A DNA stretch of 64,000 nucleotides, taken from IMG/VR virus record IMGVR_UViG_3300032116_015003, positions 1 to 64,000 of that record; one strand, given 5' to 3'. Shown piece after piece: positions 27,131-62,958 of the stretch. The stretch's first letter is position 1. Each line of letters begins with the position of its first letter. The position numbers were made by a program, and so were the translations under genes. This DNA comes from a virus. The notes below the pieces were generated by a model. It ran no database searches. It saw only the letters and a program-made list of their open reading frames with translations, and was not told the origin of the DNA.

Positions 27131-27895
27131 ATGATTTATTTGTCCGACCTACTAAATGAAACAAAACTACCATCAAGTGAGATTGATATGGACGTTTATG
27201 CGCGTAAGTATTTAAAAACAATAGATTATTTAAAAACTAAGAAAAAAACATTGTTACTCACAACTAGTAATAGATGGATACAACACAAAGATGATGTACC
27301 AAAAAGTACTCAATTGGCAATAAAAATAAAAGAAACTCTTGGAAGTGATAAAATAATTCATCTTGATATTCCAAAATTAAATATTTTACCATGTGAAGGT
27401 AATGTTAGTAGCAACAAGCAATTTGGTGGATATCATTGTGGTACAAAAGACTCGGCATTAAAAGATAAAGAAAAAAATCCTACGGGAAATCATCGTTGTT
27501 GGTGTAGTTATAACAACAAAAATGATGAATTATGGAAAGTTAGTAAAGAACTTTTTGAATGTGATGCTGTTGTATTTTTTACAAGCATTAGATGGGGACA
27601 AGCCAATAGCTTTTACCAAAAATTAATTGAAAGATTAAATTGGCTTGAAAGCCGACATGCTACATTGGGAGAAAGCAATATTGTTAAAAATATTGACGCT
27701 GGATTTATTGCAGTTGGTCAAAATTGGAACGGTCCAAGTGTTGTGAAAACTCAAAAACAAGTTTTTGAGTTTTTTGGATTCAATACTCCAAATGATTTGT
27801 TTTGGAACTGGCAATATACAAATGACCCGTGGGATGAATCAAAGCGTTCATATAATACTGCACCGAGTGTGTTTAACGAAACATTTAAAATATAA
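27131..27895 (+). CDS. Flavodoxin-fold NAD(P)H:FMN reductase-like protein with capsid-leader-like N terminus
   Basis: A 254-residue protein. After the leader MIYLSDLLNE, residues from about 38 on form a flavodoxin-like fold: the strand KTLLLTTSNRW where the FMN phosphate loop should be, DAVVFFTSIRWGQANSFYQKLIERLNWLES with the family's typical loop and helix, and VGQNWNGPSVVKTQ. It probably binds FMN and NAD(P)H. The start at 27131 gives the same leader as the genes at 41426, 41779 and 62374, suggesting the enzyme is packed in the head (inference). It stands alone between sheath and terminase genes. Confidence 0.65.
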   Translation: MIYLSDLLNETKLPSSEIDMDVYARKYLKTIDYLKTKKKTLLLTTSNRWIQHKDDVPKSTQLAIKIKETLGSDKIIHLDIPKLNILPCEGNVSSNKQFGGYHCGTKDSALKDKEKNPTGNHRCWCSYNNKNDELWKVSKELFECDAVVFFTSIRWGQANSFYQKLIERLNWLESRHATLGESNIVKNIDAGFIAVGQNWNGPSVVKTQKQVFEFFGFNTPNDLFWNWQYTNDPWDESKRSYNTAPSVFNETFKI

Positions 27896-27945
27896 AAAAC
27901 TTATATAGATATTATGTTATATGTAATAAAGGCTGTTATAAATTT

Positions 27946-28635
27946 ATGAAAAAAGCATCAGGAAAAAGTAATTTAAGCATTGTACGCGATTATCTTGACG
28001 GAACTAGACCATTCATTCAAGTAGGATATGATGAAAATGTGGCATTGCAAAGTCGAAAAGAAGGAGAAGAATGGGAAGATAGTAATGGTGTTAAATGGGT
28101 AAAGAAGAATGGATATAAGAAACGTGTAAGCAAAAAAGCACAGTATGTTTTTGAACAACGCTGCACGGTTTGTAACGCAGATATGAAATGGGGAAATTAT
28201 CTTGATCAGAAAATATATCCGAAGACTCAACGATGCTATGAATGCAATATTGAATTTGAAGCAATCTTAAAAAGTCGTGGAATTTACAATGACTATGAAA
28301 AATTTAAAGTAATTAACAATGAATTATCAATGATGAAAGATTTCAAATCAAAGATTGTTGATAGCATAAATTACCTTGAAAATTATACACCACAAACAAA
28401 AGATCCTCAATTTTTCAATGAAGATGGTAGCAATGAAATTTGGGTAGATGACACAGATAGACGCGAACTTGTATTGAAAGATTTGAAAGAAGATCTTGAT
28501 AAAGTCAATAGTGGAATCGCATTAGCAGAAAGCGAATTAGTTAAATTAAATTATAACGTTGCGCTTGATCCAAATATTAATAAATTAACATTGAAAAAGA
28601 TACAGGAAAAAGAGGAGAAATTGCAAAATGGCTGA
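27946..28635 (+). CDS. Zinc-finger protein in the small-terminase position
   Basis: A 229-residue protein. CTVC..CYEC (around residues 69-92) forms a four-cysteine zinc site, and the C-terminal 100 residues are strongly helical with coiled-coil spacing. It overlaps the large terminase gene by 8 bases. By position it could be the small terminase gp16 or a terminase accessory factor, but no sequence signature confirms this. Confidence 0.55.
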   Translation: MKKASGKSNLSIVRDYLDGTRPFIQVGYDENVALQSRKEGEEWEDSNGVKWVKKNGYKKRVSKKAQYVFEQRCTVCNADMKWGNYLDQKIYPKTQRCYECNIEFEAILKSRGIYNDYEKFKVINNELSMMKDFKSKIVDSINYLENYTPQTKDPQFFNEDGSNEIWVDDTDRRELVLKDLKEDLDKVNSGIALAESELVKLNYNVALDPNINKLTLKKIQEKEEKLQNG

Positions 28636-30223
28636 AAAATCATTAAAAGAAATAATCAAAGAAGAGTATAAAAAATGTTTGGTTGATCCGATATATTTCA
28701 TGAAGAAATATGTAAAGATTCAACATCCAATTCGTGGCACAATTAATTTTGATTTGTATCCTTTTCAAGAAGAAACATTAAGTGGATTGGTAGAAAATGA
28801 TTTTAATATCATTTTAAAAAGTCGTCAAATGGGTATTAGCACATTGGTTGCCGCATATAGTTTGTGGCTGATGGTATTTCATACAGATAAAAATATTCGC
28901 TGTATTAGTATTACACAAGAAACAAGTAAAGAAATTGTTACCCGTGTTCGATTTGCCAATGATAATTTACCCGTTTGGTTAAAAGTGCCCGTTGTTGAAA
29001 ACAATCGTCTTTCTCTAGTATTAAAAAATGGTAGTACAATCAAGGCAGAAAGTAGTGCAGGTACAGCAGGACGTTCGGCGGCATTGTCATTACTAATTAT
29101 TGACGAAGCTGCATTTATTGATAATATCGAAGAAATTTGGTTGTCTGCTCAATACACATTGAGTACAGGTGGTCGTGCAATTGTTTTGAGTACACCAAAC
29201 GGAGTTGGTAATTTCTTTCATAATACATGGGTTGACGCTGAAGCAAAGAAAAACAATTTTCATACAATTAAGTTGCCGTGGCATTTACATCCGGAGCGTG
29301 ATCAAAAATGGCGCGACCAACAAACAGCTTTGAGTGGTGTAAAAGGATCTGCACAAGAATGTGATTGTGATTTTAGTACTACCGGTAACACTGTAATTGA
29401 TATTCCTACATTAGATTTTTACAAAAATGAAAAGGTTAAAGATCCGATAGAAATGCGGGGTATTGATAAAAGTTATTGGATTTGGGAATATCCAGATTAT
29501 AGTCGTAGTTATATTGTTTGTGCCGACGTTGCGCGTGGAGATGGTGCAGATTATAGCGCATTTCATGTAATTGATATTGAAAGTTTCACGCAAGTTGCCG
29601 AATATCAAGGTCAAATTAATACTAAAGATTACGGTAATATGTTGGTTAGCGTTGCGACCGAATATAACAATGCATTATTAGTTGTTGAAAATGCAAATAT
29701 CGGATGGGCAGTATTACAGCAAATTATTGACCGTGGCTATCCTAATACATTTTATAGCAGTGCCGATCTTCAATATGTAGATATTGAACGTCAGATATCA
29801 AACAAGTTTAATGCTATGGAAAAGAAGATGGTGCCGGGATTTACGACAACAATGAAGACTCGTCCGTTGATTGTATCTCGTTTGGAAATGTATTTTAGAG
29901 AACGTAGCATTGAAGTTCGTTCAGCAAGATTGGTAAATGAATTGAGAACATTTATTTGGAATGGTAACAAACCAGAAGCGTTGCCAAAATATCACGACGA
30001 TCTGGTTATGTCATTTAGTATTGGTATGTGGGTGCGTGATACTGCATTAAAATTACGTCAACAGGGTGTTGATATTACTAAGAGTTTGATAAACAACATC
30101 AACAAGCTTGGAAATGCAGATCCAATTTATAAAACTGGTAATTTAACTGCTCAACAAGCATGGGAAATGAATATCGGAAAAACTGGTAATGATAAAAAAG
30201 AGTCTTTAAATTGGTTATTATAA
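28628..30223 (+). CDS. gp17: Large terminase (DNA-packaging motor ATPase/nuclease)
   Basis: A 531-residue protein (T4 gp17 is 610). The ATPase has Walker A SRQMGIST (65-72), Walker B LLIIDE (155-160) and coupling motif STPNG (188-192). The nuclease domain has Asp300 in CADVARGDGADYS and HDDLVMS near residue 460. It pumps DNA into the prohead through the portal encoded next door and cuts concatemers. GAGGAG lies about ten bases before the ATG. Confidence 0.92.
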   Translation: MAEKSLKEIIKEEYKKCLVDPIYFMKKYVKIQHPIRGTINFDLYPFQEETLSGLVENDFNIILKSRQMGISTLVAAYSLWLMVFHTDKNIRCISITQETSKEIVTRVRFANDNLPVWLKVPVVENNRLSLVLKNGSTIKAESSAGTAGRSAALSLLIIDEAAFIDNIEEIWLSAQYTLSTGGRAIVLSTPNGVGNFFHNTWVDAEAKKNNFHTIKLPWHLHPERDQKWRDQQTALSGVKGSAQECDCDFSTTGNTVIDIPTLDFYKNEKVKDPIEMRGIDKSYWIWEYPDYSRSYIVCADVARGDGADYSAFHVIDIESFTQVAEYQGQINTKDYGNMLVSVATEYNNALLVVENANIGWAVLQQIIDRGYPNTFYSSADLQYVDIERQISNKFNAMEKKMVPGFTTTMKTRPLIVSRLEMYFRERSIEVRSARLVNELRTFIWNGNKPEALPKYHDDLVMSFSIGMWVRDTALKLRQQGVDITKSLINNINKLGNADPIYKTGNLTAQQAWEMNIGKTGNDKKESLNWLL

Positions 30224-30238
30224 GATATATATACAAAT

Positions 30239-32110
30239 ATGCCTACAGATGAATTCAAAGAGTTGAAACAACGTTCGTTGTTTTCAAAATTAAGAAGATT
30301 ATTTAGCACCGACGTAATTGTTCGTAATATTGGTGGTAAAAAACTGAAAGTAGTAGACACCGACGAATTAGCATACGCGACAGATCGTAATACCTTACGT
30401 GATCGTTTCAATCGTATTCGCACAAGTGCTTATAATCAATATAGCCGTGATTTCACATTGAGTTATCAAGCGGCTCGTATTGAATTGTTTCGTGATTACG
30501 ACACAATGGATATGGACCCTATTATCAGTAGTGCATTAGATATTTATGCAGATGAGTGTTTAACGCAAAACGAATTGGGCGATATGCTAACAATTCGTAG
30601 CACCAATGATAACGTCAAACAAATTCTTCATAATTTGTTTTATGACATTTTAAATATTGAATTTAATTTGTGGAGTTGGACTCGTAATTTGGTCAAATAT
30701 GGTGATTTTTACTTGAAAATGTATGTAAGTCCAGAATTTGGCGTTTACATGGTTGAACCAATTAGTAGCTACAACGTTACCCGTGTAGAAAATAGCGATT
30801 TAAATAATAAAAATTATATTAAATTTCAAGTAAATTTACCAGAAGGTGGAAAAATTGAAGAATTAGAAAATTATCAGGTTGCACATTTTCGTTTGTTGAG
30901 CGATAGCAATTTCTTACCTTACGGAAAAGGTATTATTGAAGGTGCGCGTCGTGTTTGGAAACAAGTTAGTTTGATGGAAGATGCAATGTTGATTCATCGT
31001 ATTATGCGAGCACCTGAAAAGCGTATTTACAAGGTTGACATTGGTAATATTCCACCAAACGAAGTTGATCAATATATGGAAAAATTGATCAATAAAACAA
31101 AAAAAGTTCCTTATATTGATGAAAAAACAGGTGACTACAATCTTCGTTTCAATTTGTGGAACATGGTTGAAGATATTTATTTGCCTGTTCGTGGCAGTGA
31201 TAGTGGAACCAGCATTGAGCCATTGAGTGGCATGGAATTTACAGGTATTGATGATATTGAATATCTTCGCAACAAAATGATGGCTGCATTAAAGATTCCA
31301 AAGGCATTTTTGGGATATGAAGAAGATTTGAGCGGCAAAGCTACATTAGCAGCAGAAGACGTTCGTTTTGCACGTACCGTTCAACGTGTTCAAAAATTTA
31401 TTGTTAGTGAATTAACAAAAATTGCAATTGTTCATTTGTATTCACAAGGTTATCGCGATGCAGAATTGGTTGATTTTAGTTTGGAATTAACAAATCCATC
31501 GACTATTTTTGAAAAAGAAAAGGTTAGTGTCTGGCAAGAAAAAACCAGTTTGGCAAAAGAAATGATTGATGCCAAAATTTATAGTCGTAAATGGATTCAT
31601 ACTACTGTCTTCAATACCAGTGAAGATGATATTGACACTATTAACAATGATATTGTTGAAGATGCAAAACAAGCATATCGTTTGAAGAAGATTGAAGAAG
31701 AAGGTATTGATCCAGCAAAACCATATAATAAAATTAATGCTGGTGAAGAAGGAGACGCTGGCGCAACCCCTGAACTCGGCGCAGCAGAACCAGAAGCAGC
31801 ACCAGCAGAAACACCAGCACCACCAACAGGTGCAGGAGAAGCTCCATTAAAAGAACGAGATCAAACAGGTCGTAAAAAAGCATCAAATTATCCATTTGGA
31901 GAAGATCCATTGGGTAGTAAAGAAAACACTCGCCGTTCAAATAAAACAACAACAAAACATCCTATTTCACATGCATACAAAAATAATAGTCCTTTGAGTT
32001 TTGAAGGATTGGATATGCATCTTCGTGGAGATGGTACAAAATCAATTTTAAATGAAAATATAGATTCAAAAAAGAAATCATTTTTGGATGAATCTAATAT
32101 AATTGACTAA
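30239..32110 (+). CDS. gp20: Portal vertex protein
   Basis: A 623-residue portal (T4 gp20 is 524). The typical T4-group segments are present: YQAARIELFRDYDTMD and DPIISSALDIYADE early, ISSYNVTRVEN, and EYLRNKMMAALKIPKAFLGYE in the second half. The last about 120 residues are Ala/Pro/Glu-rich, then basic and Ser/Asn-rich; this extension is not typical and may be flexible. It starts 15 bases after the terminase gene. Confidence 0.9.
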   Translation: MPTDEFKELKQRSLFSKLRRLFSTDVIVRNIGGKKLKVVDTDELAYATDRNTLRDRFNRIRTSAYNQYSRDFTLSYQAARIELFRDYDTMDMDPIISSALDIYADECLTQNELGDMLTIRSTNDNVKQILHNLFYDILNIEFNLWSWTRNLVKYGDFYLKMYVSPEFGVYMVEPISSYNVTRVENSDLNNKNYIKFQVNLPEGGKIEELENYQVAHFRLLSDSNFLPYGKGIIEGARRVWKQVSLMEDAMLIHRIMRAPEKRIYKVDIGNIPPNEVDQYMEKLINKTKKVPYIDEKTGDYNLRFNLWNMVEDIYLPVRGSDSGTSIEPLSGMEFTGIDDIEYLRNKMMAALKIPKAFLGYEEDLSGKATLAAEDVRFARTVQRVQKFIVSELTKIAIVHLYSQGYRDAELVDFSLELTNPSTIFEKEKVSVWQEKTSLAKEMIDAKIYSRKWIHTTVFNTSEDDIDTINNDIVEDAKQAYRLKKIEEEGIDPAKPYNKINAGEEGDAGATPELGAAEPEAAPAETPAPPTGAGEAPLKERDQTGRKKASNYPFGEDPLGSKENTRRSNKTTTKHPISHAYKNNSPLSFEGLDMHLRGDGTKSILNENIDSKKKSFLDESNIID

Positions 32111-32155
32111 AGTTAGATAAATATCGTATTTAAATCAATTTTACACATTTTTCTC

Positions 32156-32165: not shown

Positions 32166-32187
32166 AAATAACGGAATAGACATTATT

Positions 32188-33569: not shown

Positions 33570-34049
33570 ATGTCGATTAGTTTAAAAAGACTAATAGAAT
33601 TGGATAGTGAGCCGCAAGTCAAACAAAATGCGGCTTATACTCCTATTGTTGCTCAACAACCAACTCCACAAGGTCAGGAGTTTAATGTTGGATTAGATTT
33701 TACTAATTTTGAACGAACGATAGCAGCATTTACTGAAAATGCAAAAAATGCATTTCAACAAAAACTTATGAGTTTGGTTGGAAATAAAAAAGTATTTTTG
33801 CGTGGTAGTAAAGGCTATGGTCAGCCAATTAAAGATTATACTGTCAATGTAAAAAGCGTTAGCATTGATTTTTATTATGAACGTTATGTTGTTGTTTTCA
33901 AAGATGAAAATGACAAAGAATACTTTTTAGAGCCGGGATACAAGATTAAAATCTTGGGTCAGGCACAAATTGTTCCAAAAACACCAAAGAAAAAAAAGAA
34001 GGAACAACCTCCGGTTGTGCCAGTTCAACCAAATATTAATCCTAGATAA
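33570..34049 (+). CDS. Head-region protein with capsid-leader-like N terminus
   Basis: A 159-residue protein. It starts MSISLKRLIELDSE, a variant of the shared leader with a possible gp21 site after LIE. A Pro/Gln linker follows, then a beta-rich domain (about 85-135: VFLRGSKGYGQPIKDYTVNVKSV, YVVVFKDENDKEYFLEPGYKIKIL) and a Lys/Pro tail. It ends one base before the protease gene. Probably an internal or core protein (inference). Confidence 0.5.
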   Translation: MSISLKRLIELDSEPQVKQNAAYTPIVAQQPTPQGQEFNVGLDFTNFERTIAAFTENAKNAFQQKLMSLVGNKKVFLRGSKGYGQPIKDYTVNVKSVSIDFYYERYVVVFKDENDKEYFLEPGYKIKILGQAQIVPKTPKKKKKEQPPVVPVQPNINPR

Positions 34050-34050: not shown

Positions 34051-34668
34051 ATGAATAAAGAATTACTTGTTGACTGCATTTCGTTTGCAGTAAGCCGAGA
34101 TGTCATAAATGAAATGACAAATAGTGGCGGACCTTTTGTAGTAAAAGGTGTATTGCAACGTGCTAATGCAAAAAATCAAAATGGTAGAATTTATCCAAAA
34201 GCAATTTTGGAACGTGAAGCAGTAAAATATACTGAAAACTTCATCAAACAACGTCGTGCATTAGGTGAATTAGATCATCCTGAAACTAGTGTTGTTAATT
34301 TGCAAAATGTTAGTCATAACGTATTGGAAGTTCACTGGGAAGGTGATGATTTGGTCGGTAGTGTTGAAATTTTAACAACGCCAAGCGGCAACATTTTGCG
34401 TGAGTTATTTAAAAGCTCAATCAATGTTGGCATTAGTAGTCGTGGCGTAGGTAGTGTAAAACGAAAAATGGCAGAAAGTGCAGATGAAGTTCAAGAAGAT
34501 TTTGAATTAATTGCATTTGATTTCGTTAGCAACCCAAGCACACAAGGAGCATTTTTACATCCGTCTGGACAAATTCAAGAAGGTGTAAATACAATTAAAA
34601 ATCCAGTCACAAACAAATGGGATAATGTAAATAATATTATTCGAGAAATCTTAGGAGAAATTAAATAA
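34051..34668 (+). CDS. gp21: Prohead maturation protease
   Basis: A 205-residue protease (T4 gp21 is 212). Typical residues are visible: KNQNGRIYPK (41-50), the catalytic His76 in GELDHP, and the catalytic serine in GISSRG (127-132; Ser129 or Ser130). It trims scaffold, capsid and internal proteins during head maturation, in T4 after I/L-x-E. ATG 34051 follows the stop of the preceding gene by one base; a longer upstream frame overlaps it and is rejected. Its likely targets here are discussed under the leader-bearing genes. Confidence 0.88.
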   Translation: MNKELLVDCISFAVSRDVINEMTNSGGPFVVKGVLQRANAKNQNGRIYPKAILEREAVKYTENFIKQRRALGELDHPETSVVNLQNVSHNVLEVHWEGDDLVGSVEILTTPSGNILRELFKSSINVGISSRGVGSVKRKMAESADEVQEDFELIAFDFVSNPSTQGAFLHPSGQIQEGVNTIKNPVTNKWDNVNNIIREILGEIK

Positions 34669-35371: not shown

Positions 35372-35857
35372 ATGATCACGTTAAAAAAAATTATTGAAGG
35401 AGTTGAACAAGAATCTTCTGTAGATACTAATGAATTGAGTGGTATGATGGGACAGTCACCTACTACATGGGATACGCCAAAAGCATATGCTCCTGCCGGT
35501 GCGCCAGTTCGAACAAATGAAGCATTACCTTCAAAGAAATTAACCGCTGAAGAAAAGCGTAAATTGCTTGGTATGATTGGTCAATTTAACGAATATCGCC
35601 GTGCTATGAAGATGGCGGATGAATTGAAACACGTTGCTGAAAACATTGTTTACATTGCAGAAATGACCGAAAAATACGGTTTGAATGAAACAAGTGAGTG
35701 GTTTGAAGGAGTAACATTGGAACGTGATATGAAAGAAATTAAACGTTATGCAAGTGAATTGCATAAGATTGCTAATAAAGTTCATCCACAGGTTCAACAA
35801 GCCGAAGCAATATACGAAGAAATTGGACTAAAGTTAGAAAGATACTTTAATCTATAA
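35372..35857 (+). CDS. Helical head-region protein with capsid-leader-like N terminus
   Basis: A 161-residue protein with the leader MITLKKIIE followed by GVEQESS. Residues 50-161 are helical (LTAEEKRKLLGMIGQFNEYRRA and onward), like a core or internal protein. AATATTTATTA lies just before the ATG. A bidirectional terminator follows. Confidence 0.55.
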   Translation: MITLKKIIEGVEQESSVDTNELSGMMGQSPTTWDTPKAYAPAGAPVRTNEALPSKKLTAEEKRKLLGMIGQFNEYRRAMKMADELKHVAENIVYIAEMTEKYGLNETSEWFEGVTLERDMKEIKRYASELHKIANKVHPQVQQAEAIYEEIGLKLERYFNL

Positions 35858-36277: not shown

Positions 36278-36766
36278 TTATTTATTCATTAATAGTGCGT
36301 CTGTAAAAAAATTATAAATGTTGCTCAAGAAATTTGGAATATTTGCATTTTTATCAAATGAACTTCCTGAGCGACTAAACACTGCGCCGGGTTTATCTAT
36401 ATCTTCTCGTTTAGTAAATGCAACATACCACATGGCATATTTATATTCATTAGAATTTCGTGGATTTGCAATTTTTCTAATGGCAAAATGAAAATTTGTT
36501 GGCGATTGATTAACTTCAAATTGAATAGTATTATTTGTAAAATCAACTGAACTTATATTACTATATACATGTTTAATTGCTTCTTTTATTTTTTCAAGCT
36601 CTTGAGGACCAATTGTATAAGGGCGATTATATCCTTTTTGTAATACAGCAGTCAAATTGGTATCATCAGCTTCTTTTGTTTCAACATAAGAAGATTCAAT
36701 CAACATATTTTCCAACAATACTTTTTTGATATATTGTTTCAATGATTGTTTTTGTTTTTCGTTCAT
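36278..36766 (-). CDS. Hypothetical protein with possible capsid leader
   Basis: A 162-residue protein. The start MNEKQKQSLKQYIKKVLLEN is a longer version of the leader seen elsewhere (basic helix then LLE). The body is a mixed alpha/beta domain (VDFTNNTIQFEVNQSPTNFHF, YAMWYVAFTKRED). Not recognised. On the coding strand GATATTTATTTAT immediately precedes the ATG. Confidence 0.5.
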   Translation of the reverse strand: MNEKQKQSLKQYIKKVLLENMLIESSYVETKEADDTNLTAVLQKGYNRPYTIGPQELEKIKEAIKHVYSNISSVDFTNNTIQFEVNQSPTNFHFAIRKIANPRNSNEYKYAMWYVAFTKREDIDKPGAVFSRSGSSFDKNANIPNFLSNIYNFFTDALLMNK

Positions 36767-36915: not shown

Positions 36916-38097
36916 ATGTCAAAATTATTACAAGAAGCACTCGCTGACGCAAAAGCCGTTAAGCGTATTGCTATTGAAAATGCTAAAGTAGCATTAGAAG
37001 AAACATTCCAACGCGAAGTCACCGGAATGTTCCAAGAAAAAATCAAAGAAGAATTGGCCAACGAAGAAACCTACGGTGTAGGTGATCAAAGTGGCGGCCT
37101 TCAAGGATCCAGTGATATTGGCGGAACTGTTGGTGGCAGCAAAAAGCCATCTGCAAAAGCCCACAAAACATCAACCAAAGTTTCTAAGTTGGAAACTGGT
37201 GTAAAATTGGATGAAGAAGCCGAAGATTCGATGCATGCTGAAGTTGGTTCACATGACAATCAAATGGAAGCTTCAGAAGAAGCTGTTCATGATGAAACAA
37301 TTACCAATGAAGAATTGGAAGAAATCTTGAGTAGCTTAGAAGAAGAATTGGATGAAGAAGGTGAACCGTCACCAGCACAACCTCCTGTTGATCCAATGGC
37401 ACAAACACCTGCTCCTGCTCCTGCGCCAATGGCACCTGCTCCAGTTGATCCAAATGCTCCAGTAGCTGCTCAACCTCCAGTTGATCCAAATGCTCCTGTT
37501 GCTCCAGTTGCTCCTGCTCCAATGGCACAAGCACAACCTCCAGTTGCTGAAGAAGAAGAAAGCATGGAAGAAATCAGTCTCGACGAACTTTTGAGTGAAA
37601 TCGGTGCTGAAGAAAGCTTGGAAGAAGCTAAGGAAGAAGACGACGACGAAAAAGAAGAAAAAGAAGAAGGTAAAGAAGAAGATGAAGATTTGAAAGAACA
37701 AAATACTTCACTTCGTACCCAATTGAGCGAACACATTAAAGTCATTGAATATTTGCGTGAACAAATCAATGAAATTAATTTATTGAATGCAAAATTATTG
37801 TATACCAACAAGTTGTTTAAGCAATTTGGATTGAGTAACACACAAAAATTGAGCATTGTTGAAAAATTCGACTTGGCAAGCACAGTACGTGAAGTCAAGT
37901 ATGCATACACAATTTTAGCCGAATCATTAAGTTCCGGTGCATCAACAGTCAAGAAGACTAATACTGTTGCAAAATCTATCACCGAAGGTTTGGCAAGCAA
38001 AGCAGTTGCATCCACAAAACCATCAAAAGATGTAATTGTTGAAAACACTAACGAGATGGCTTTGAAATTCCAAAGACTCGCCGGAATCAAGAAGTAA
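36916..38097 (+). CDS. gp22: Prohead core scaffold protein
   Basis: A 393-residue acidic, helical protein in the gp22 position. It has an N-terminal KLLQEALADAKAV helix, then very acidic stretches (EEILSSLEEELDEEG; the DDDEKEEKEEGKEED run around 240-255) and a C-terminal helical domain resembling T4 gp22 (LREQINEINLLNAKLLYTN, LSIVEKFDLASTVREVKYAY). T4 gp22 is 269 residues. The extra length includes a Pro/Ala-rich repeat (about 155-213) built on P-x-D-P-N-A-P. AAGGA lies about ten bases before the ATG. Confidence 0.82.
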   Translation: MSKLLQEALADAKAVKRIAIENAKVALEETFQREVTGMFQEKIKEELANEETYGVGDQSGGLQGSSDIGGTVGGSKKPSAKAHKTSTKVSKLETGVKLDEEAEDSMHAEVGSHDNQMEASEEAVHDETITNEELEEILSSLEEELDEEGEPSPAQPPVDPMAQTPAPAPAPMAPAPVDPNAPVAAQPPVDPNAPVAPVAPAPMAQAQPPVAEEEESMEEISLDELLSEIGAEESLEEAKEEDDDEKEEKEEGKEEDEDLKEQNTSLRTQLSEHIKVIEYLREQINEINLLNAKLLYTNKLFKQFGLSNTQKLSIVEKFDLASTVREVKYAYTILAESLSSGASTVKKTNTVAKSITEGLASKAVASTKPSKDVIVENTNEMALKFQRLAGIKK

Positions 38098-38148: not shown

Positions 38149-39912
38149 ATGAGTGATATTAAGTCATTATTGACAAACAACATGAACCCACAAGCACGTT
38201 TGATGCAGGAAACTCGTCAATTACAAAGTAAGTGGGATAAAACTGGTCTTCTTGAAGGATTGGGCGGCGTAGAAAAAGCCAATATGTCCATCTTGCTTGA
38301 AAACCAAGCAAAGCAATTGCTTGATGAAGCAACTGCCACAGGTACATCAGCAAACAGTGAACAATGGGCAGGCGTAGCTCTTCCATTGGTTCGCCGTGTA
38401 TTTGCTGAAATTAGCGCAAAAGAATTCGTTTCAGTACAACCAATGAATCTTCCAAGTGGTTTGATCTTTTATTTGGATTTCAAATATGGTTCAACTAATG
38501 GCGGATTTACTGCTGACTCAGCTAACAATTACAGTTCATTGTTCGGTGGAACAGGCAAGAAGCTTGGATCAACTGACAGTGCAACCGGTGGTTTGTATGG
38601 TGTAGGTCGTTATGGTTATTCTATTAATGATATTACAGCAAGTATTTCTGCTGCAACTGGTAGCAGCTTGCCAGCAAGTGGAGTATATTTCACCACTGCG
38701 TCATATAGTGATGTCGATTTTGATGCATCCTATAGTTCTAGCGTTAACGGTACAAGCAACAACATCTACAAGTTGACAATTAATTTGGGAGATAATAGTA
38801 GTACTTCAGGTGCAAACCCATTTGCATCAACAATTAATAATGCCGACTTAAATGCAGTACGTAGCTTCGTATTCACTGGAACCAGTACAACTACTGCTCC
38901 ATTGAACGCATTCCAAGCTGTATATAACACTGGTAGTTTGGCAAGTCCACAATACTCAGTAACATTGTTCTTCAGTGCATCTTCAGCATTGTTGGCAGCC
39001 GGTAAAGTAACTGGCTCTGTATTGTTTAGCAAGCAACCAACTGATACAACCCGTGGTGACTTCGAAGATAAGGCTCCATTCAGTGGTACTGGTGCAAATA
39101 CTGGTATTAACGCTGGTACCGATATTGGTATTCCAGAAATTAACTTGGAATTGAAGAGCGAACCTATCGTTGCCAAGACACGTAAATTGAAGGCCGTTTG
39201 GACCCCTGAATTGGCTCACGATTTGAATGCTTACCACAGCATCGACGCAGAAGCAGAATTGACTGCTTTGTTGAGTGAATACGTCTCAATGGAAATTGAT
39301 TTGGAAATCCTTGATATGTTAATTACTGCTGCTCCGGGTGTAACAACTCAAGCATGGAGTGCTAAGATCGGTAATGAATTGTCAGTTAACTTGGATAGTT
39401 TCGGTAATATGAATAATATTACTTTGAACACCGACGCAACTAACAAAACTGCATATGTTAAGAGCACATGGTTCCAAACATTGGGTAACAAGATTCAACG
39501 TGTATCTAACAAGATTCACCAATTGACTCTTCGTGGTGGTGCTAACTTCTTGGTCGTCAGTCCAGATGTTGCAACTATCTTGGAAAGTATTCCGGGCTAT
39601 GTAGTAAACACCGATGGTGATAGTGCTAAGTTCGCAATGGGCGTAAGCCGTGTTGGTTCTTTCGCATCACGTTTCCAAGTTTACAAGAATCCATATATGG
39701 TTGAAAACGTAATCTTGGTTGGTTTCCGTGGAAATAACTTCCTCGAAACTGGTGCAGTTTATGCTCCATATATCCCACTCGTACAAACTCCAATGGTATA
39801 CGATCCAATTAACTTCACACCACGTCGTGGAGTATTGACTCGTTATGCTAAGAAAGTAATTCGTCCAGAATTCTACGGTAAAGTATTCATTGGTGATCTT
39901 GACCAAGTATAA
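38149..39912 (+). CDS. gp23: Major capsid protein
   Basis: A 587-residue capsid protein (T4 gp23 is 521). The N-terminal region ends with QLLDE (56-60) before ATAT, matching the I/L-x-E gp21 cleavage rule and close to the T4 site after residue 65. Then come ALPLVRRVFAEISAKEFVSVQPMNLPSGLIFYLDF, the family signature, and a C-terminal half with AELTALLSEYVSMEIDLEILDM and NFTPRRGVLTRYAKKVIRPEFYG. A Ser/Thr-rich insertion lies around residues 125-300. AAGGA is present about ten bases before the ATG. A terminator follows. Confidence 0.92.
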   Translation: MSDIKSLLTNNMNPQARLMQETRQLQSKWDKTGLLEGLGGVEKANMSILLENQAKQLLDEATATGTSANSEQWAGVALPLVRRVFAEISAKEFVSVQPMNLPSGLIFYLDFKYGSTNGGFTADSANNYSSLFGGTGKKLGSTDSATGGLYGVGRYGYSINDITASISAATGSSLPASGVYFTTASYSDVDFDASYSSSVNGTSNNIYKLTINLGDNSSTSGANPFASTINNADLNAVRSFVFTGTSTTTAPLNAFQAVYNTGSLASPQYSVTLFFSASSALLAAGKVTGSVLFSKQPTDTTRGDFEDKAPFSGTGANTGINAGTDIGIPEINLELKSEPIVAKTRKLKAVWTPELAHDLNAYHSIDAEAELTALLSEYVSMEIDLEILDMLITAAPGVTTQAWSAKIGNELSVNLDSFGNMNNITLNTDATNKTAYVKSTWFQTLGNKIQRVSNKIHQLTLRGGANFLVVSPDVATILESIPGYVVNTDGDSAKFAMGVSRVGSFASRFQVYKNPYMVENVILVGFRGNNFLETGAVYAPYIPLVQTPMVYDPINFTPRRGVLTRYAKKVIRPEFYGKVFIGDLDQV

Positions 39913-39995: not shown

Positions 39996-40790
39996 ATGTA
40001 TTCAGAAAAAATATCACTAAAGTCTTTGTTATTGGAATATTTTACGGAACCCGTTTCTGTTTTAAAAAAATACATTACTAAAACAGAGGCAGAAAGAAAA
40101 ATAGAACTTGGATTAAAAAATGATTGCATAGAATTTTTAGCAAGACGATATCCAAGTATATATGAAAAATATAGAAAAAACAATTACGGTGAATCGTCTG
40201 AAATGTTAATGAAAGAGCATTTAGATGTATTTAATGAATGGTGTAATTTTTTGTATGAAAAATTAAACAGTTATGATTATCATGAATACTTTGACACGGG
40301 CTATCCGACATGGAATTATGTAGATTATAGATCCATTGTAAAAAATCAATGGTTGATTCATTTTAGTGATACAGCACAAAATATTTATTATGATCAAAGA
40401 TTTAATAGTGGAGTAGATGATTATACAAGACTAGGATTAACTAAGCATTTATCCGATGGTATGAAAGATATGGAAGGATATAATTTTGCTTATTTATTAA
40501 GTGATTATTTGAGATACGGAAAGGAACGTAATCGATTCAAATATGGAAAAGAAGCTGTTTTGTTCAAAGCAAGTGGAATACAAGTGTGGCATTTTGGTGA
40601 TGCCGAACCACAAGTAATTTTTTGGGGACCGAGTGCATTTGATATTGTCTATATTAGAGAAGACAGTGACACAGGCGAATATTATGTATATAGTAAAAAC
40701 AAGACAAGTCCATTCAGAGGAGAATTTGATGATTGTGTTGACTGGGTAATAAATAATTTTAATCAATATAAACGCATATTATTACCTTGA
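39996..40790 (+). CDS. Leader-bearing protein, possible ADP-ribosyltransferase fold
   Basis: A 264-residue protein (an in-frame ATG two codons upstream is also possible). The N terminus MYSEKISLKSLLLEYFTE holds the shared leader. After a helical region (about 20-95), WLIHFSDTAQNI, LGLTKHLSDGMKD, NFAYLLSDYLRYGKERN and KYGKEAVLFKASGIQVWHFGD are reminiscent of ART-fold proteins (opening H-F/H-x-T strand, inner strands ending with a substrate-contacting loop). No classical catalytic glutamate can be assigned with certainty. Probably a head-internal protein injected with DNA, like T4 Alt (inference). Confidence 0.5.
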   Translation: MYSEKISLKSLLLEYFTEPVSVLKKYITKTEAERKIELGLKNDCIEFLARRYPSIYEKYRKNNYGESSEMLMKEHLDVFNEWCNFLYEKLNSYDYHEYFDTGYPTWNYVDYRSIVKNQWLIHFSDTAQNIYYDQRFNSGVDDYTRLGLTKHLSDGMKDMEGYNFAYLLSDYLRYGKERNRFKYGKEAVLFKASGIQVWHFGDAEPQVIFWGPSAFDIVYIREDSDTGEYYVYSKNKTSPFRGEFDDCVDWVINNFNQYKRILLP

Positions 40791-40810: not shown

Positions 40811-41422
40811 ATGAAATTAACCGACATTGTTGAAAATATTGTTCATCCAGCAGAACCAATGAATCTAATTAAAGAGGTTGCTGTTAGCCAAAATTTAAAA
40901 TATCATTTGGATAGACACTTAACGCTTGAAGAATGTGTATTTCGCAATTATAGCGAAGCTTATTTTAACTTAATAAATGAAATTCGTGCATTATACAACG
41001 ATGATGCAATTGAATTAAATGAATATGACGCAGATATTGTCGAAAGCGATTTGGGAGAAACTGCTGAATATGAAGGACGCACTGTATATTTAGATGCTCC
41101 TATTGAAGAAGATGTTGATGAACAATTGATGTTGGAAGCAAAACATCGTGGCAGAACAGTTAAATTAAATAGACCATTTCGAACTCCCGGTGGACCAAAA
41201 AAATTTGCTGTTTATGTAAAAAGCAAAAAGGGAAAAATCAAAAAAGTAACATTTGGTGATCCTAAAATGCGTGTTCGTGCCAGTAGCAAGGCTCGCCGCA
41301 AGAGCTTTTCTGCCCGACATAAATGTAGTCAAAAGAAAGATCGTACAACAGCAGGTTATTGGAGTTGCAGAGCACATCGTATTCGCAGTTTGGGTACAAA
41401 AAGCAAGGGCAAATATTGGTAA
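40811..41422 (+). CDS. Two-part acidic/basic probable head-internal protein
   Basis: A 203-residue protein from ATG 40811 (MKLTDIVENI); an in-frame ATG at 40787 is less likely. Residues 1-105 are acidic (EDVDEQLMLE near the end). Residues about 108-203 are strongly basic with KKFAVYVKSKKGKIKKVTFGDP, then a Cys/Arg/Lys-rich end (ARHKCSQKKDRTTAGYWSCRAHRIR), a domain I have seen at the end of other T4-like phage proteins. LMLE before AKHRG would be a gp21 cut releasing the basic half to bind packaged DNA (inference). Confidence 0.6.
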   Translation: MKLTDIVENIVHPAEPMNLIKEVAVSQNLKYHLDRHLTLEECVFRNYSEAYFNLINEIRALYNDDAIELNEYDADIVESDLGETAEYEGRTVYLDAPIEEDVDEQLMLEAKHRGRTVKLNRPFRTPGGPKKFAVYVKSKKGKIKKVTFGDPKMRVRASSKARRKSFSARHKCSQKKDRTTAGYWSCRAHRIRSLGTKSKGKYW

Positions 41423-41425: not shown

Positions 41426-41449
41426 ATGATTAAGCTTAAAGATTTGATT
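41426..41449 (+). repeat. 24-base direct repeat, copy 1 (leader coding)
   Basis: Starts ATGATTAAGCTTAAAGAT and continues TTGATT; encodes MIKLKDLI. It is identical to 41779-41802, although the proteins that follow are unrelated. Confidence 0.95.
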
Positions 41450-41782
41450 GACGAAGGTTGGGGAGGCATGCTTCAAGCACAGTTCTATTGGCTTGATAAA
41501 AATGGAAATGCGAAAAAAGTTTCAAGTCACGGAAGTTATGCTAATCTTTTATCAAAAATAGATTGGGACGATGATCAATCATATCAATATATGTTTGATC
41601 GTGGATGGGCAAGAATTTCAATAGAAGATAATTATATATTTATAAATACATCATTGACAAATCCAGTTCACGTCGATTTGACCAAATCTCAAAAAGAATG
41701 GCTTAAAACAATCCGAGATGAAATATATCCAGCGCAACATTTACAAATTGTAAACATATACCGAAGACCAATAGAAATATGA
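41426..41782 (+). CDS. Leader-bearing small protein (118 aa)
   Basis: A 118-residue protein with the leader MIKLKDLIDE followed by GWGG, an attractive gp21 site (I-D-E before G). The body is beta-rich with several Trp/Tyr (FYWLDKNGNAKKVSSHGSY, MFDRGWARISIEDNYIFIN) and is not recognised. Its first 24 bases are identical to those of the next gene. It overlaps the next gene by 4 bases (ATGA). Confidence 0.6.
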   Translation: MIKLKDLIDEGWGGMLQAQFYWLDKNGNAKKVSSHGSYANLLSKIDWDDDQSYQYMFDRGWARISIEDNYIFINTSLTNPVHVDLTKSQKEWLKTIRDEIYPAQHLQIVNIYRRPIEI

Positions 41783-41802
41783 TTAAGCTTAAAGATTTGA
41801 TT
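41779..41802 (+). repeat. 24-base direct repeat, copy 2 (leader coding)
   Basis: Identical to 41426-41449, at the start of the next gene, 353 bases downstream. Confidence 0.95.
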
Positions 41803-42120
41803 TTAGAACATTCAAATGATATTGTTTATCACTTGACTAAAAAATCTAATTTATCCAGTATTAAGAAATACGGACTAAAACCAAATTTACCGGTTGATAT
41901 GCCCACTGAAGATGAAGGTGTGTATGTATTTAAAACAAAAGAAAATGCAGAAGATGCATTGATGAATTGGTATGGAGACAGATTTGATGAAGATGAAGAA
42001 TTTGTATTGTTGACCATCAAGACAGATGGATTGCAATTGTTTTCAACAATGGTAGATTGGGAATATATTTCATACACAAATATACCAGCATCCAATATTA
42101 TTAAAATAGAAAATATATGA
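41779..42120 (+). CDS. Leader-bearing protein, probable ADP-ribosyltransferase fold
   Basis: A 113-residue protein. After the leader MIKLKDLILE, the body IVYHLTKKSNLSSIKKYGLKP, then EGVYVFKTKENAEDAL and FVLLTIKTDGLQLF has the order of ART-like folds (Y-H-x-T strand, I-x-x-x-G-L turn, G-V/I-Y-x-F strand followed by an A-x-x-x-A helix). It is short for a full toxin. No substrate can be named. It overlaps both neighbours by 4 bases, so three leader-bearing genes are translationally linked. Confidence 0.6.
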   Translation: MIKLKDLILEHSNDIVYHLTKKSNLSSIKKYGLKPNLPVDMPTEDEGVYVFKTKENAEDALMNWYGDRFDEDEEFVLLTIKTDGLQLFSTMVDWEYISYTNIPASNIIKIENI

Positions 42121-42722
42121 TTTTATTAAAAACATTACTATTAGAAAATAATTGGCCGAATGTAATTTTGAATGATAAACATCTTTGGTATCATGGCAGA
42201 AGCATTGATAGTGACGTTTTTTCGTATGATTATGTCGGCGGCGAAAATGCATATGATCAAGAGGGGCCGGGATTTTATTTTACAAATAATTTCGAGGATG
42301 CAAAAAAATATACAAATTCAAATGGTATTATATTAAAATGTAAAATAAATTATCAAAAAATACTTATAAAAAGCCCATCATCAAATACAAAAGTTAATAA
42401 AAAAATAATTGTTGATTTAATTAATAGTAGTCCAGACAAAGATTATACACTAGAAAATTTTGATGAAAATCCAAAAATGGCAATGATTAAAGCAATAAAT
42501 GCATATTTGAAATATGATTATGCGCATGACGCGTATCAAATACTTGCCCGTGATTTTTACAAATACAATCCAAAAGAATATTTACAAATATTGTCAAAAT
42601 ATTATGATGCTCAATTAACTGATAAAAACATAATGGATGGTAAAAAAGTATATCATTTGATTGTTTACAATCCAACATTAATTACAGTTATTGATAAAAT
42701 AAAATATGAATCTTCCATTTAA
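42117..42722 (+). CDS. Leader-bearing protein, probable ADP-ribosyltransferase fold
   Basis: A 201-residue protein with leader MILLKTLLLE before NNWPN. WYHGRSIDSDVFSYDYVGG, then GPGFYFTNNFEDAKKYTNSNG and IILKCKI match the opening of an ART-like domain (Y-H-G-x-S, G-x-G-x-Y-F-T, then a helix with A-x-x-Y). The second half (about 95-170) is helical and unrecognised. It may act on host proteins early after injection, as T4 Alt does (inference). Confidence 0.6.
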   Translation: MILLKTLLLENNWPNVILNDKHLWYHGRSIDSDVFSYDYVGGENAYDQEGPGFYFTNNFEDAKKYTNSNGIILKCKINYQKILIKSPSSNTKVNKKIIVDLINSSPDKDYTLENFDENPKMAMIKAINAYLKYDYAHDAYQILARDFYKYNPKEYLQILSKYYDAQLTDKNIMDGKKVYHLIVYNPTLITVIDKIKYESSI

Positions 42723-59637: not shown

Positions 59638-59642
59638 ACTAT

Positions 59643-59903
59643 ATGACTACAAAAATTATTATTTCTCGATTTGAATTAATCGACAATCCACCAACCGGAA
59701 AAGTAGTTGGTTTTACTATAAAAAATTTAGATAATGAATTTTCAGATTATACTGAAACCATAATGTCTATAGCTGAATGCGTAGATAAAACCGATAACGA
59801 AATATGTCAACTTGCATATTTAAAAATAAAATTACAAATTGAAAATATTATTAATAAATTGAATACACGATCTACTATTTTAGGTAGTGAATTTGTGCCT
59901 TAA
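59643..59903 (+). CDS. Small hypothetical protein (86 aa)
   Basis: An 86-residue protein with alternating strands then a C-terminal helix (QLAYLKIKLQIENIINKL). Not recognised. It begins five bases after the giant fibre gene and may be a fibre-associated factor by position. Confidence 0.5.
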   Translation: MTTKIIISRFELIDNPPTGKVVGFTIKNLDNEFSDYTETIMSIAECVDKTDNEICQLAYLKIKLQIENIINKLNTRSTILGSEFVP

Positions 59904-59910
59904 AATATAA

Positions 59911-60933
59911 ATGAAACACGTTACAATTTCCAGTGTATATAATTTTGAATCTGGCTATAATGTATTATTAAAAGGGTTATTAGATAATTTACCAAAAAAT
60001 AATTATTCAATAAGACCTCGTTCTTATAGCAAAGTTACTTCTGATTTTCAACGATATTTTGAAAATGTTGTTTATCGAAAAGAAGATTGTAATTTATTAT
60101 TGTTGCCGCCGTGCAATCAAATAGATAGCGTTCATCCATTATTTAATATAGTACCGGCAAAAAACACTATTTTTTTTACAATGTGGGAGAGTAGTAGATT
60201 TACTGATATTTTTATAGATAAATCAAATACTATGCAGGCAATGATTGTTCCGAATAAATGGAACAAGCAATCATTAGAATTACAGGGATGTAACGTACCG
60301 ATTCATATAGTTCCGTTGTTTATAGATGATAAAGTATTTAATTATCAAGAGCCGATTGTTCAAAATAAATTTATTTTTGGAACAGCAAATGACGATCCGC
60401 GCAAACGAGTAAATGAAACAATTAAATGTTTTATTAAAGCATTTCCAAAAGAAAAGGATGTTGTTTTGAAAGTTAAACTTTCAAAAAATTCTATTATAAA
60501 TAAGTTTACAGACGATAGAATAAAAATTATAACAGACAGTTACAGTCAACGTCAATTGGTTGATTTTTATGCGTCTTTAAATGTGTTTGTTAGTGGAGTT
60601 AGTTCAGAAGGATGGGGTTTACATCAACATGAGAGTATGGCATGTGGTAGACCTGTAATTGCTGCTTGTTATGCCGGGCTGGCAGAATTTATGACAGAAG
60701 AAAATAGTTTTTGTTTAAAATATAACGAAGTGCCAAGTACAGATTATTGGGAAACCCCCGGCGGCAAATGGTCAAAATATGATGAAGATCACATGATCGA
60801 AACTATGCGATATTGTTATAATAATTCATCGTCTGTTTTCCAAAAAGGAATTATTGCTAGTGAAAATGTTTCGCGTTTCAATGTGGCAAATTTTATAAGT
60901 GATATTTCTTCAGTAATTAATATTTATACTTAA
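59911..60933 (+). CDS. GT4-like glycosyltransferase
   Basis: A 340-residue GT-B glycosyltransferase. The C-terminal donor-binding half is clear: GTANDDPRKRVNE, VDFYASLNVFVSGVSSEGWGLHQHESMACGRPVI with the family's Glu-x7-Glu arrangement, then AGLAEF. The N-terminal half has MWESSRFTDIF, typical of this group. It lies just after the Ser/Thr-rich fibre genes, so O-glycosylation of fibres is an attractive guess; host-surface modification is the alternative. Confidence 0.78.
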   Translation: MKHVTISSVYNFESGYNVLLKGLLDNLPKNNYSIRPRSYSKVTSDFQRYFENVVYRKEDCNLLLLPPCNQIDSVHPLFNIVPAKNTIFFTMWESSRFTDIFIDKSNTMQAMIVPNKWNKQSLELQGCNVPIHIVPLFIDDKVFNYQEPIVQNKFIFGTANDDPRKRVNETIKCFIKAFPKEKDVVLKVKLSKNSIINKFTDDRIKIITDSYSQRQLVDFYASLNVFVSGVSSEGWGLHQHESMACGRPVIAACYAGLAEFMTEENSFCLKYNEVPSTDYWETPGGKWSKYDEDHMIETMRYCYNNSSSVFQKGIIASENVSRFNVANFISDISSVINIYT

Positions 60934-60977
60934 TAATATATTATTGAGCGTTATTTAACAAGTAGATTGAATTTGAA

Positions 60978-61634
60978 TCAATTAATTAATACTCTTGTTT
61001 TTTCGTGCCCTACAACAACAGTCGGATCGACATATAAACTATATCCATTTCTAATTATCGATCTGCAAAATGCAACATCTTCCATTGTAAAATCTTTTAA
61101 ATTATTTCCGATGTTAACAAATTCAGGCCGAAACCAAGGATATTCAATAGATTCGGTTACTCCTTTTTTTATCAACATGAACCCCATTCCAGTATAATGA
61201 ACTTGAATCAAGTCTTTTTTATTTTCTATATCATGTGGTTGTAGAAATTTAAAATATCCATGTTGTAAAAAATATGACTCATCCCAATTTTTGACCGTGG
61301 CATAGTTTAATCCATCTTCCATTAAATAAAGACCACTAACTACATCCTGTTTTCTATTCAACAAAGTTTTGAATTGCTCTACTGTAAATATTATATCACT
61401 ATCGATCCACATTATATAATCATAATCTAATTGCCCGTTATATGGTTTTTGTAAAGTTCCATTTAGAATATTTCCACCTAAACACATGTTTCTGACATAA
61501 TAAATGTTACAACTATAATATTGTTGTAAACTAACACTAATTCCATTATTTATACACCACGCTAATAATTCCGACCAGCATCTTAAAAAGCGTCCACTAA
61601 AACTTTTTCCCGGCAAACAAAAAACAATTTTCAT
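60978..61634 (-). CDS. GT-A (GT2-like) glycosyltransferase-like protein
   Basis: A 218-residue protein. MKIVFCLPGKSFSGRFLRCW opens a Rossmann-like strand, DYDYIMWIDSDIIF contains the D-x-D metal site of GT-A enzymes, and MGFMLIKKGV..I.YPWFRPE fits the acceptor region; MEDVAFCRSI resembles the E-D motif. The start at 61634 is chosen because the 16 codons upstream look non-coding. It faces the preceding glycosyltransferase gene tail to tail. Confidence 0.72.
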   Translation of the reverse strand: MKIVFCLPGKSFSGRFLRCWSELLAWCINNGISVSLQQYYSCNIYYVRNMCLGGNILNGTLQKPYNGQLDYDYIMWIDSDIIFTVEQFKTLLNRKQDVVSGLYLMEDGLNYATVKNWDESYFLQHGYFKFLQPHDIENKKDLIQVHYTGMGFMLIKKGVTESIEYPWFRPEFVNIGNNLKDFTMEDVAFCRSIIRNGYSLYVDPTVVVGHEKTRVLIN

Positions 61635-61723
61635 AAATAAAATAAAACAAATTCTGTATATACATATATGTATGTATATCAAACGAATTATTTTATTCGT
61701 TACAACAATAACTAGTTAAACAT

Positions 61724-61999
61724 ATGGCAGAACCAATCAAGTTACAAGAATCAGAGATGTTATCATTACAAACTATTCAATCACGATACCAAGAAAAGGT
61801 ATTCCAATTTGGCCAATTTTATTTGGAACGAATTGCATTGGATGAAAAAATCAAAAATCTAGCCGACGCTGAAAATAAAGCGAAGGAAGAATTTTCTGTA
61901 ATTCAGCAAGATGAACAAAAGTGGATGAATGATATTGCATCTAAATACGGAGACGGAAATCTTTCTTTGAAAGATGGTACATTCACTCCAAAATCATAA
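61724..61999 (+). CDS. Small coiled-coil protein (91 aa)
   Basis: A 91-residue helical protein (LQTIQSRYQEKVFQFGQFYLERIALDEKIKNLADAE) with a short C-terminal tail. The pattern is common in T4-like and cyanophage small proteins of unknown role. A terminator follows. Confidence 0.6.
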   Translation: MAEPIKLQESEMLSLQTIQSRYQEKVFQFGQFYLERIALDEKIKNLADAENKAKEEFSVIQQDEQKWMNDIASKYGDGNLSLKDGTFTPKS

Positions 62000-62033
62000 A
62001 CAATCTGTAGTAATAAATTTGTTATATTTCAAA

Positions 62034-62060
62034 ACCACATAATATATTATGTGGTTTTTT
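62034..62060 (+). terminator. Rho-independent terminator
   Basis: Perfect 22-base palindrome (62034-62055, arms ACCACATAATA) followed by T. Confidence 0.8.
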
Positions 62061-62095
62061 GTTTTTACAATTTACAATATAATATTTATTAATAT

Positions 62096-62287
62096 ATGAA
62101 TATTTATGAAACTTATGATGATAATAATCTAAATCATGTAGAAAATGGTCCCGATTATGGTCAAACTTATATGGGTTCAAAAATGACTATATTAGCATGG
62201 AATATTGAAAATTCATTTGAATTTGAATATTATGATAATTTCAGTTCCAATCAAATTGTTATAGAACCACTTATTTCAATTGATTAA
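62096..62287 (+). CDS. Small acidic hypothetical protein (63 aa)
   Basis: A 63-residue acidic, Asn/Tyr-rich protein, not recognised. AATATTTATTAATAT precedes the ATG. It is alone between a terminator and the tagged nucleotidase gene. Confidence 0.45.
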   Translation: MNIYETYDDNNLNHVENGPDYGQTYMGSKMTILAWNIENSFEFEYYDNFSSNQIVIEPLISID

Positions 62288-62373
62288 AATTAATATGTAC
62301 GTTATAGTGATGTACATATACTTATTATAGTGGGTGTGTCAAGTTTATTCACGCACAATTCGTTTTTTTATTT

Positions 62374-62958
62374 ATGATCTATCTACAGGATATTTTAAAA
62401 GAAGTTACAGATGCTAATTTATTGGAACAAGACTTGAGTCGTATTATATATGTTGATTTGGACGGTGTTCTGGTTGATTTTGATGGGGGCTTCAAATCCA
62501 TATCAGGTGGAGTTGATAAATTTGATTATATTAAACAAAACGGTGTGGATAAGTTATGGAAATTAATAAACTCACATGGACAAGAATGGTGGGAAACTTT
62601 AAATTGGATGCCCGATGGAACAAAATTATGGTCGGCAATTTCAAATAAAAATGTCAAGATACTTACTAGTGGAAGCACTCGCAACACAGGAACAATGGCT
62701 ATCAATGGGAAAAAGAAATGGGTTGCGGCTCACTTGGGTCAGATTGAAACAATCGTAGTAAATAACAGTCATGAGAAACAAAACTATGCACGTCCCGGTG
62801 ACATTTTAATAGACGATTTATACAGCAATATCAGTGAATGGATTGCAAAAAAAGGAATTGGTATTTTGCATCGTAATGCAGAAGAATCAATCAATAAATT
62901 AAATGACGTTATAAATACTCAAACTGAAACTTATGGTTATAGTTGGTCAAACGTATGA
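62374..62958 (+). CDS. HAD-family 5'(3')-nucleotidase-like protein with capsid-leader-like N terminus
   Basis: A 194-residue protein. The leader MIYLQDILKE is followed by VTDANLLEQD (a second possible I/L-x-E site), then a HAD phosphatase: motif I DLDGVLVDFD (28-37), a motif II region KILTSGS, a lysine in KKWVAAHLG, and motif III/IV ILIDD. The layout matches 5'(3')-deoxyribonucleotidases. The leader predicts packaging in the capsid, 20 kb from the other tagged genes (inference). TTTTTATTTATG surrounds the start codon. Confidence 0.72.
   Translation: MIYLQDILKEVTDANLLEQDLSRIIYVDLDGVLVDFDGGFKSISGGVDKFDYIKQNGVDKLWKLINSHGQEWWETLNWMPDGTKLWSAISNKNVKILTSGSTRNTGTMAINGKKKWVAAHLGQIETIVVNNSHEKQNYARPGDILIDDLYSNISEWIAKKGIGILHRNAEESINKLNDVINTQTETYGYSWSNV

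Follow-up and report, generated by a model that had tools for sequence, protein, structure and literature searches.

The internal proteins of T-even phages, Ip1 to Ip3 (IPI to IPIII in T4), have only a leader in common and block different GmrSD enzymes. Their genes were discovered through this signal sequence, and related phages carry at least 10 Ip proteins (PMC12373910). Mutations in T4 IPIII impair targeting mainly at residues 4 and 7 and processing at residues 8 and 10 (PMC9026906). We analyzed a window of 64,000 bases (bases 1 to 64000 of a 123,688-base IMG/VR virus record) from an environmental, T4-related phage, in which genes between 27131 and 62958 begin with a leader of the pattern M-I-x-L-K/S-x-L-L/I-x-E. 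This leader is very probably a T4-type capsid-targeting propeptide, cleaved by the prohead protease, that marks cargo for packaging in the head. Genes are named below by their first listed coordinate.

The leader resembles those of T4 IPI to IPIII and Alt in being an N-terminal stretch of about 10 residues on otherwise unrelated proteins, with hydrophobic residues at 4 and 7, I/L at 8, and E at 10, in a phage that encodes a gp21-family protease. In both systems a constant leader stands beside variable cargo that includes an ADP-ribosyltransferase (ART; Alt in T4). However, the T4 leader is MKTYQEFIAE, whereas the consensus here is MIxLKxLLxE. The cargo here is mainly enzymes and unassigned proteins, with no Pfam or PHROG match tying it to Ip1 to Ip3, the carriers surround the head genes whereas T4 has two distant ip loci, and the phage group is environmental. 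The kind of system is therefore already known, and the phage group, leader consensus, and enzyme repertoire are new. An initial annotation of this DNA had described the set as larger than and different from the known one; it is different, but the 10 or more Ip proteins reported for related T-even phages (PMC12373910) leave "larger" unsupported.

Other packaging signals are more distant. The N-terminal signal of phage P1 DarB packages this anti-restriction protein and is enough to package a reporter (PMC9024508), but it sits in the first 30 residues of a single, very large protein, and we liken it to the present leader by description, not by sequence. In phiKZ, SPN3US, and 201phi2-1, a divergent homologue of gp21 cuts many head proteins on the C-terminal side of E, and some are ejected (PMC9026906). 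That system differs in its S/A-x-E site (in phiKZ) and is not described as a single short leader shared by accessory enzymes. Polyvalent and MuF-fused ARTs and other effectors are thought to be packaged with the genome (PMC9503650, PMC5512222). In those cases, packaging was deduced, widely for ARTs (PMC9503650), from MuF/portal fusion or gene neighborhood, whereas the small proteins here each bear a putative cleavable tag of their own. The likeness is that Pfam family ART-PolyVal (PF18760) matches 42117. Pfam and PHROG searches found no MuF/portal fusion among the window carriers, all of which are small (113 to 264 amino acids). Keyword searches of the available text of PMC9503650 and PMC7824862 found no such leader described. 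In literature searches the leader was undescribed in this phage group, although subscription papers were mostly outside their coverage, so its absence is unproven.

Leader carriers in the window

Five open reading frames (ORFs; 27131, 41426, 41779, 42117, and 62374) start exactly with the leader (Table 1). In a sixth, 39996, it lies four residues in (MYSE-KISLKSLLLE), and in the close relative L276 the orthologous protein has it at the very start. Leaders 33570 and 35372 have one residue fewer before E than the consensus, and 40811 is off-pattern by one residue. We count these three as carriers because their orthologues begin with the forms given in Table 1 or, for 35372, with MINLKNILEE or MIKLKHLVEN. 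The 36278 leader is longer and of a different helix type, making it a doubtful carrier. Therefore, at least six and probably nine window proteins carry one ten-residue tag. BLAST found no relationship among the bodies of the six strict carriers. The initial annotation, which had reported a shared leader on nine to ten unrelated proteins, was borne out, with 36278 as the weak member.

To count matches we used a tight expression: M, one to three residues, then [LF][KRSQTN]x[LI][LIV]xE. Five starts in this genome match, compared with a mean of 0.09 when residues 2 to 15 of every N terminus were permuted, and 500 such rounds never gave more than two. When this genome was combined with eight relatives (nine in all), 58 of 2371 starts matched, whereas among internal in-frame ATGs 6 of 7781 did so (odds ratio 32, p 2e-30). 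There was no match among 264 starts in T4 or 101 in crAss001. A looser expression gave ten matches in T4, including IPII, IPIII, Alt, and a protein starting MAKINELLRE, which we take to be the N terminus of gp24, a known propeptide. Therefore, the looser scan recognizes real gp21 leaders. Counting all looser matches was nevertheless rejected, because about 1% of internal ATGs match the looser pattern.

These controls bear on coincidence, the proposal that A/T-rich phage genes often encode short amphipathic helices at the N terminus and that the pattern was fitted post hoc. The pattern was indeed spotted post hoc, and at least one looser match is probably due to chance: TerL 28628 (MAEKSLKEIIKEEYK), which fits the loose pattern and which we did not accept as a carrier. 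However, the shuffles, the 32-fold lower frequency at internal ATGs, and the zero counts in T4 and crAss001 refute coincidence as the sole explanation, and the leader recurs in independent genomes with position-specific conservation. We give coincidence almost no weight overall; it could cover single carriers such as 36278.

A scan of the whole 123.7-kb record found no strict leader outside 27 to 63 kb. Apart from TerL, the looser matches elsewhere were 64275 and 83409 (long form). The initial annotation had named, as an outcome that would count against it, a leader equally common on early genes; with strict leaders confined to 27 to 63 kb and looser matches few, this is not the case.

Position-specific constraint and the head module

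The 27131 protein has at least 138 matching stretches in IMG/VR. In 46 distinct orthologues, L4, L/I7, L8, and E10 are invariant, positions 3, 5, and 9 vary, and A11 follows the leader in 40. The invariant positions are those at which the T4 IPIII mutations act. This match, which is independent of how the orthologues were searched, is the strongest single argument that the leader has a capsid-targeting role, as judged from sequence comparison.

Constraint also appears to act on residues rather than bases. Leu4 of the 27131 leader is encoded by four synonymous codons (in sequences preselected for the pattern; the 46/46 residue count was not preselected). This bears on the alternative that the leader is a translation-initiation or mRNA element of late genes, such as an A/T-rich downstream box, and not a protein signal. 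A TATTTAT box does stand just before the ATG in many leader genes, and the neighboring 41426 and 41779 leaders share 27 of 30 bases, the first 24 being identical, with flanks at chance level. However, codons vary under invariant residues, late genes 42988 and 68257 have the same box without the leader, and most leader DNA pairs are only 15 to 19 of 30 identical. We therefore regard an mRNA element as very improbable. The probability that 41426 and 41779 used the same codons independently is about 0.003, and the next-closest unrelated pair is again two neighbors, in relative G005. The near-identity suggests that leader DNA is occasionally copied, as expected if the tag is a common element and the cargo is exchanged.

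The carriers lie in and around a T4-type head module, with PHROG matches to the large terminase subunit (TerL), portal, gp21-family protease, and major capsid protein (MCP). Both catalytic motifs of the protease are intact and align with T4 gp21. The putative LLDE↓A cleavage site occurs in 79 of 79 MCP homologues; placed by eye, we take it to lie opposite FLTE↓A of T4 gp23. The nearest named relatives of this MCP, at 50 to 60% identity (51 to 60% for the first two), are in Microcystis phage Mel-JY01, Flavobacterium phages immuto, and the 484-kb uncultured LR756508. It also has relatives in hundreds of IMG/VR contigs, many of which are closer. Leader genes cluster within 5 kb of the span from sheath to MCP/TerL: 4 of 5 here, 8 of 9 in each of relatives G001 and G002, and 5 of 6 in G005. 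For eight genomes combined, the odds ratio is 7 (p 3e-12); taken singly, LR756508, Mel-JY01, G003, and G004 are not significant.

The head module, protease, four capsid-targeting positions, head-gene clustering, and many unrelated bodies together make capsid targeting, on comparative grounds, a well-supported prediction. This is the part of the initial reading that held. The leader would fold into a short amphipathic helix at the N terminus, and through its hydrophobic residues 4 and 7 the newly made protein would dock on the prohead scaffold core. During prohead maturation, the gp21-family protease would cut after [LI]-x-E, a type of site that the MCP conserves as well, and the mature protein would be set free within the shell that surrounds the packaged DNA. 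The tag would be a portable module on unrelated bodies, either fixed core proteins (33570, 35372, and 40811) or enzyme and accessory cargo (27131, 39996, 41426, 41779, 42117, and 62374). The latter would probably leave the virion with the DNA and enter the host, where they would modify host proteins or counter defense from the first moment. We infer packaging with good confidence and injection with less, and the docking, cleavage, and cargo functions proposed here are likewise predictions.

Several observations weigh against capsid targeting. The tight consensus has no match in T4, where only the looser pattern finds IPII, IPIII, and Alt; therefore, the likeness to the T4 targeting sequence is one of pattern, not sequence. 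Some relatives have few leaders: G003 has no tight match, and immuto has none but has other forms. Of the LR756508 leaders, 6 are inside the head/tail span and 19 outside it. Gene calls were simple longest-ORF calls, so counts are approximate. Candidate scaffold 36916 has 18 [LI]xE sites versus 7.9 after shuffling, but the reversed Ex[LI] pattern is almost as common (17); therefore, part of the signal is helix periodicity. Finally, virion content and leader cleavage in this phage and its clade are predictions from sequence.

The initial annotation went further and had all nine or ten proteins injected, which is not supported. Because 33570, 35372, and 40811 are fixed beside the protease and MCP, they are more likely prohead-core or DNA-associated proteins than injected effectors: 33570 and 35372 are probable prohead-core or internal proteins, and 40811 is a probable processed core or DNA-associated protein or peptide. 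In 40811 there are 8 [LI]xE sites versus 2.0 expected, and a conserved internal LMLE↓A divides an acidic N-terminal half from a basic C-terminal domain. This protein ranks first of 127 genome proteins in [LI]xE excess over shuffles, followed by 36916 and 32188, all three in the head module; the protease ranks fifth. The 36916 protein is a possible docking partner of the leader. The 40811 basic domain recurs in Pelagibacter, Roseobacter, and Methylophilales phages.

All carriers might instead serve inside the prohead as scaffold or assembly components, being cut and then mostly lost or kept in the head, with none delivered. The conservation and synteny of 33570, 35372, and 40811 and the density of cleavage motifs in 40811 and the scaffold candidate are in keeping with this. 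However, the cargo of relatives, like 27131, 42117, and 62374, consists of predicted enzymes without an evident assembly role, and several enzyme-cargo genes are swapped between close relatives. This makes a purely structural role for every carrier unlikely.

Cargo in the window and in relatives

The 27131 protein is the most widespread cargo of the clade, and its gene adjoins that of TerL. Its AlphaFold2 model has a predicted local distance difference test score (pLDDT) of 65 (about 33 in the leader region). With this model, Foldseek matched SsuE/ArsH/NQO2 (prob 1.0), and the top PDB matches were all flavodoxin-fold flavin mononucleotide (FMN) reductases, which is consistent with the reductase initially proposed. 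Pfam FMN_red support was below the cut-off across 20 members (best 0.002), and neither the 27131 nor the 42117 family gave a match in PDB profile searches. The possible ARTs of the initial annotation largely stand. The 42117 protein has homologues (31 to 34%) in GAP32-like jumbo phages, and their alignment starts only at residue 24, past the leader; since its AlphaFold2 model, from three sequences, is poor (pLDDT 46), its ART assignment relies on Pfam, PHROG, and motifs. The 41779 protein appears ART-like by motif only. The proposed nucleotidase, 62374, matches NT5C above the cut-off. Its leader is identical in two relatives (L271 and L272), whereas the NT5C homologue of Sinorhizobium phage Phosso begins directly at the domain and the immuto homologue has its own leader-like MKKVMGNLADLLLE.

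The genomes and loci covered here together have 88 distinct leader proteins in 46 body families, many of them effector-like. Pfam matches among relatives' leader proteins include a CCA-adding enzyme, GNAT plus lysozyme, zeta toxin/AAA kinase, and 2H phosphoesterase/Acb1, with an HYD1-type ART and a ParB-like protein below cut-off. In the island after MCP, genes are swapped between close relatives while leaders are kept. The MCP-to-neck island of L276 has orthologues of 39996, 40811, 41779, and 42117 but none of 41426, and it encodes one further leader protein (MIKLTKLLFE).

We lean slightly toward a broader proposal, that in a large environmental branch of the T4 superfamily, which reaches up to the 484-kb phage, the cleavable leader is a general address code loading diverse enzymes into the head. 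The payload would comprise ART-like arrays, an Acb1-like phosphodiesterase against cyclic-nucleotide defense, a CCA-adding enzyme, and a flavin reductase. If so, counter-defense would act before any phage gene is read, the CCA-adding enzyme could repair tRNAs, and the virion cargo of uncultured phages would be readable from sequence. The ten-residue signature would give a short list of candidate injected effectors, many unassigned, in T4-like phages known only from metagenomes. It would also suggest that packaging enzymes for ADP-ribosylation, nucleotide signals, and tRNA repair is a common strategy that extends past T4 Alt and the Ip proteins. New leader-protease pairs could serve as packaging tags for hosts beyond Escherichia coli.

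Individual relatives add detail. In Mel-JY01, the 60276 protein starts MIKLKSLLQE and the 96164 protein MGILKQLLKE. At locus L082 (17177-17713, minus strand), a leader-tagged 2H phosphoesterase matches Acb1, which acts against the cyclic-oligonucleotide-based antiphage signaling system (CBASS), above the Pfam cut-off; it would be a virion-delivered anti-CBASS enzyme. Locus L046 (14754-16196), about 3 kb downstream of MCP, encodes a tRNA nucleotidyltransferase (CCA-adding enzyme) that carries the leader. LR756508 has a 14-member leader family with bodies about 20 to 30% identical and invariant R33 (LYRG), R78, P111, and E235, which we read as putatively ART-like; a PDB profile search returned only helical-design and coiled-coil noise. 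Clusters of these highly diverged paralogues lie at L142 to L146 (LR756508.1, about 255 to 338 kb), where a zeta-like kinase and an HExxH protein are interspersed; some of the paralogues are located further upstream. Many LR756508 leaders lie further downstream, spread over about 177 to 338 kb.

Window features, other leader types, and an upstream box

Table 1. Coordinates of leader carriers and head genes in the window
Coordinates	Strand	Feature	Evidence
27131..27895	+	Leader MIYLSDLLNE and flavodoxin-fold FMN reductase-like protein, 254 aa	Foldseek, orthologues
27131..27160	+	Capsid-targeting-like leader of the reductase, 10 codons	Synonymous codons vary, residues fixed
28628..30223	+	TerL	phrog_2 1e-42
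30239..32110	+	Portal protein, gp20-like	phrog_213 1e-59
33570..34049	+	Short-variant leader MSISLKRLIE; conserved, syntenic	Orthologues MVKLKTLLE, MISLVKLLTE, MIRLKSLME
34051..34668	+	gp21-family prohead protease, GELDHP and GISSRG catalytic motifs	phrog_207 8e-49; alignment to T4 gp21
35372..35857	+	Short-variant leader MITLKKIIE; conserved, syntenic	43 distinct relatives
36278..36766	-	Long-form leader candidate MNEKQKQSLKQYIKKVLLE	Translation, orthologues; weak
36916..38097	+	Candidate scaffold, gp22-like by position, many [LI]xE sites	Synteny, [LI]xE density
38149..39912	+	MCP (gp23-like), putative LLDE↓A site at residue 60	phrog_138 3e-69
39996..40790	+	MYSEKISLKSLLLE leader and unassigned 250-aa body	Orthologue MIKLKSLLLE
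40811..41422	+	Leader variant MKLTDIVEN	phrog_7595 7.5e-16; orthologues MINLTDIVDE
41426..41782	+	Leader MIKLKDLIDE and small body, 118 aa	Leader DNA 27/30 identical to next gene's
41779..42120	+	Leader MIKLKDLILE and ART-like (VYHLT...GLKP) small protein, 113 aa	Orthologue MIKLRDLILE
42117..42722	+	Leader MILLKTLLLE and ART-PolyVal-like protein	PF18760 1e-4, below cut-off; phrog_25279 2.6e-22
62374..62958	+	Leader MIYLQDILKE, linker of about 13 residues, and NT5C 5'(3')-deoxyribonucleotidase	PF06941 1.8e-8, above cut-off

A second leader type, roughly M-K-[IL]-x-x-x-K-L-R-x-[IVL]-[IV]-[KR]-E-E-[IL], occurs at L087 (LR756508.1, locus 462-41462) on about 15 to 20 small, unrelated-looking proteins adjoining capsid genes, alongside the MKLKDLLFE type. 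It is perhaps a second packaging class. Record gene 64275 and window gene 36278 resemble it. Another leader family, MENFDLKKFLVENKLTxNSK, is found on several immuto proteins (L086, 10691-11991), some near head genes, and on record genes 1803 and 103762; it may be the local equivalent in immuto.

Many late genes, including window genes 27131, 35372, 40811, 42988, and 62096 and record genes 64275 and 68257, have a TATTTAT(A) box 11 to 14 bases ahead of the ATG. If this box is a late promoter -10 element, transcripts would start at or near the ATG and be leaderless.

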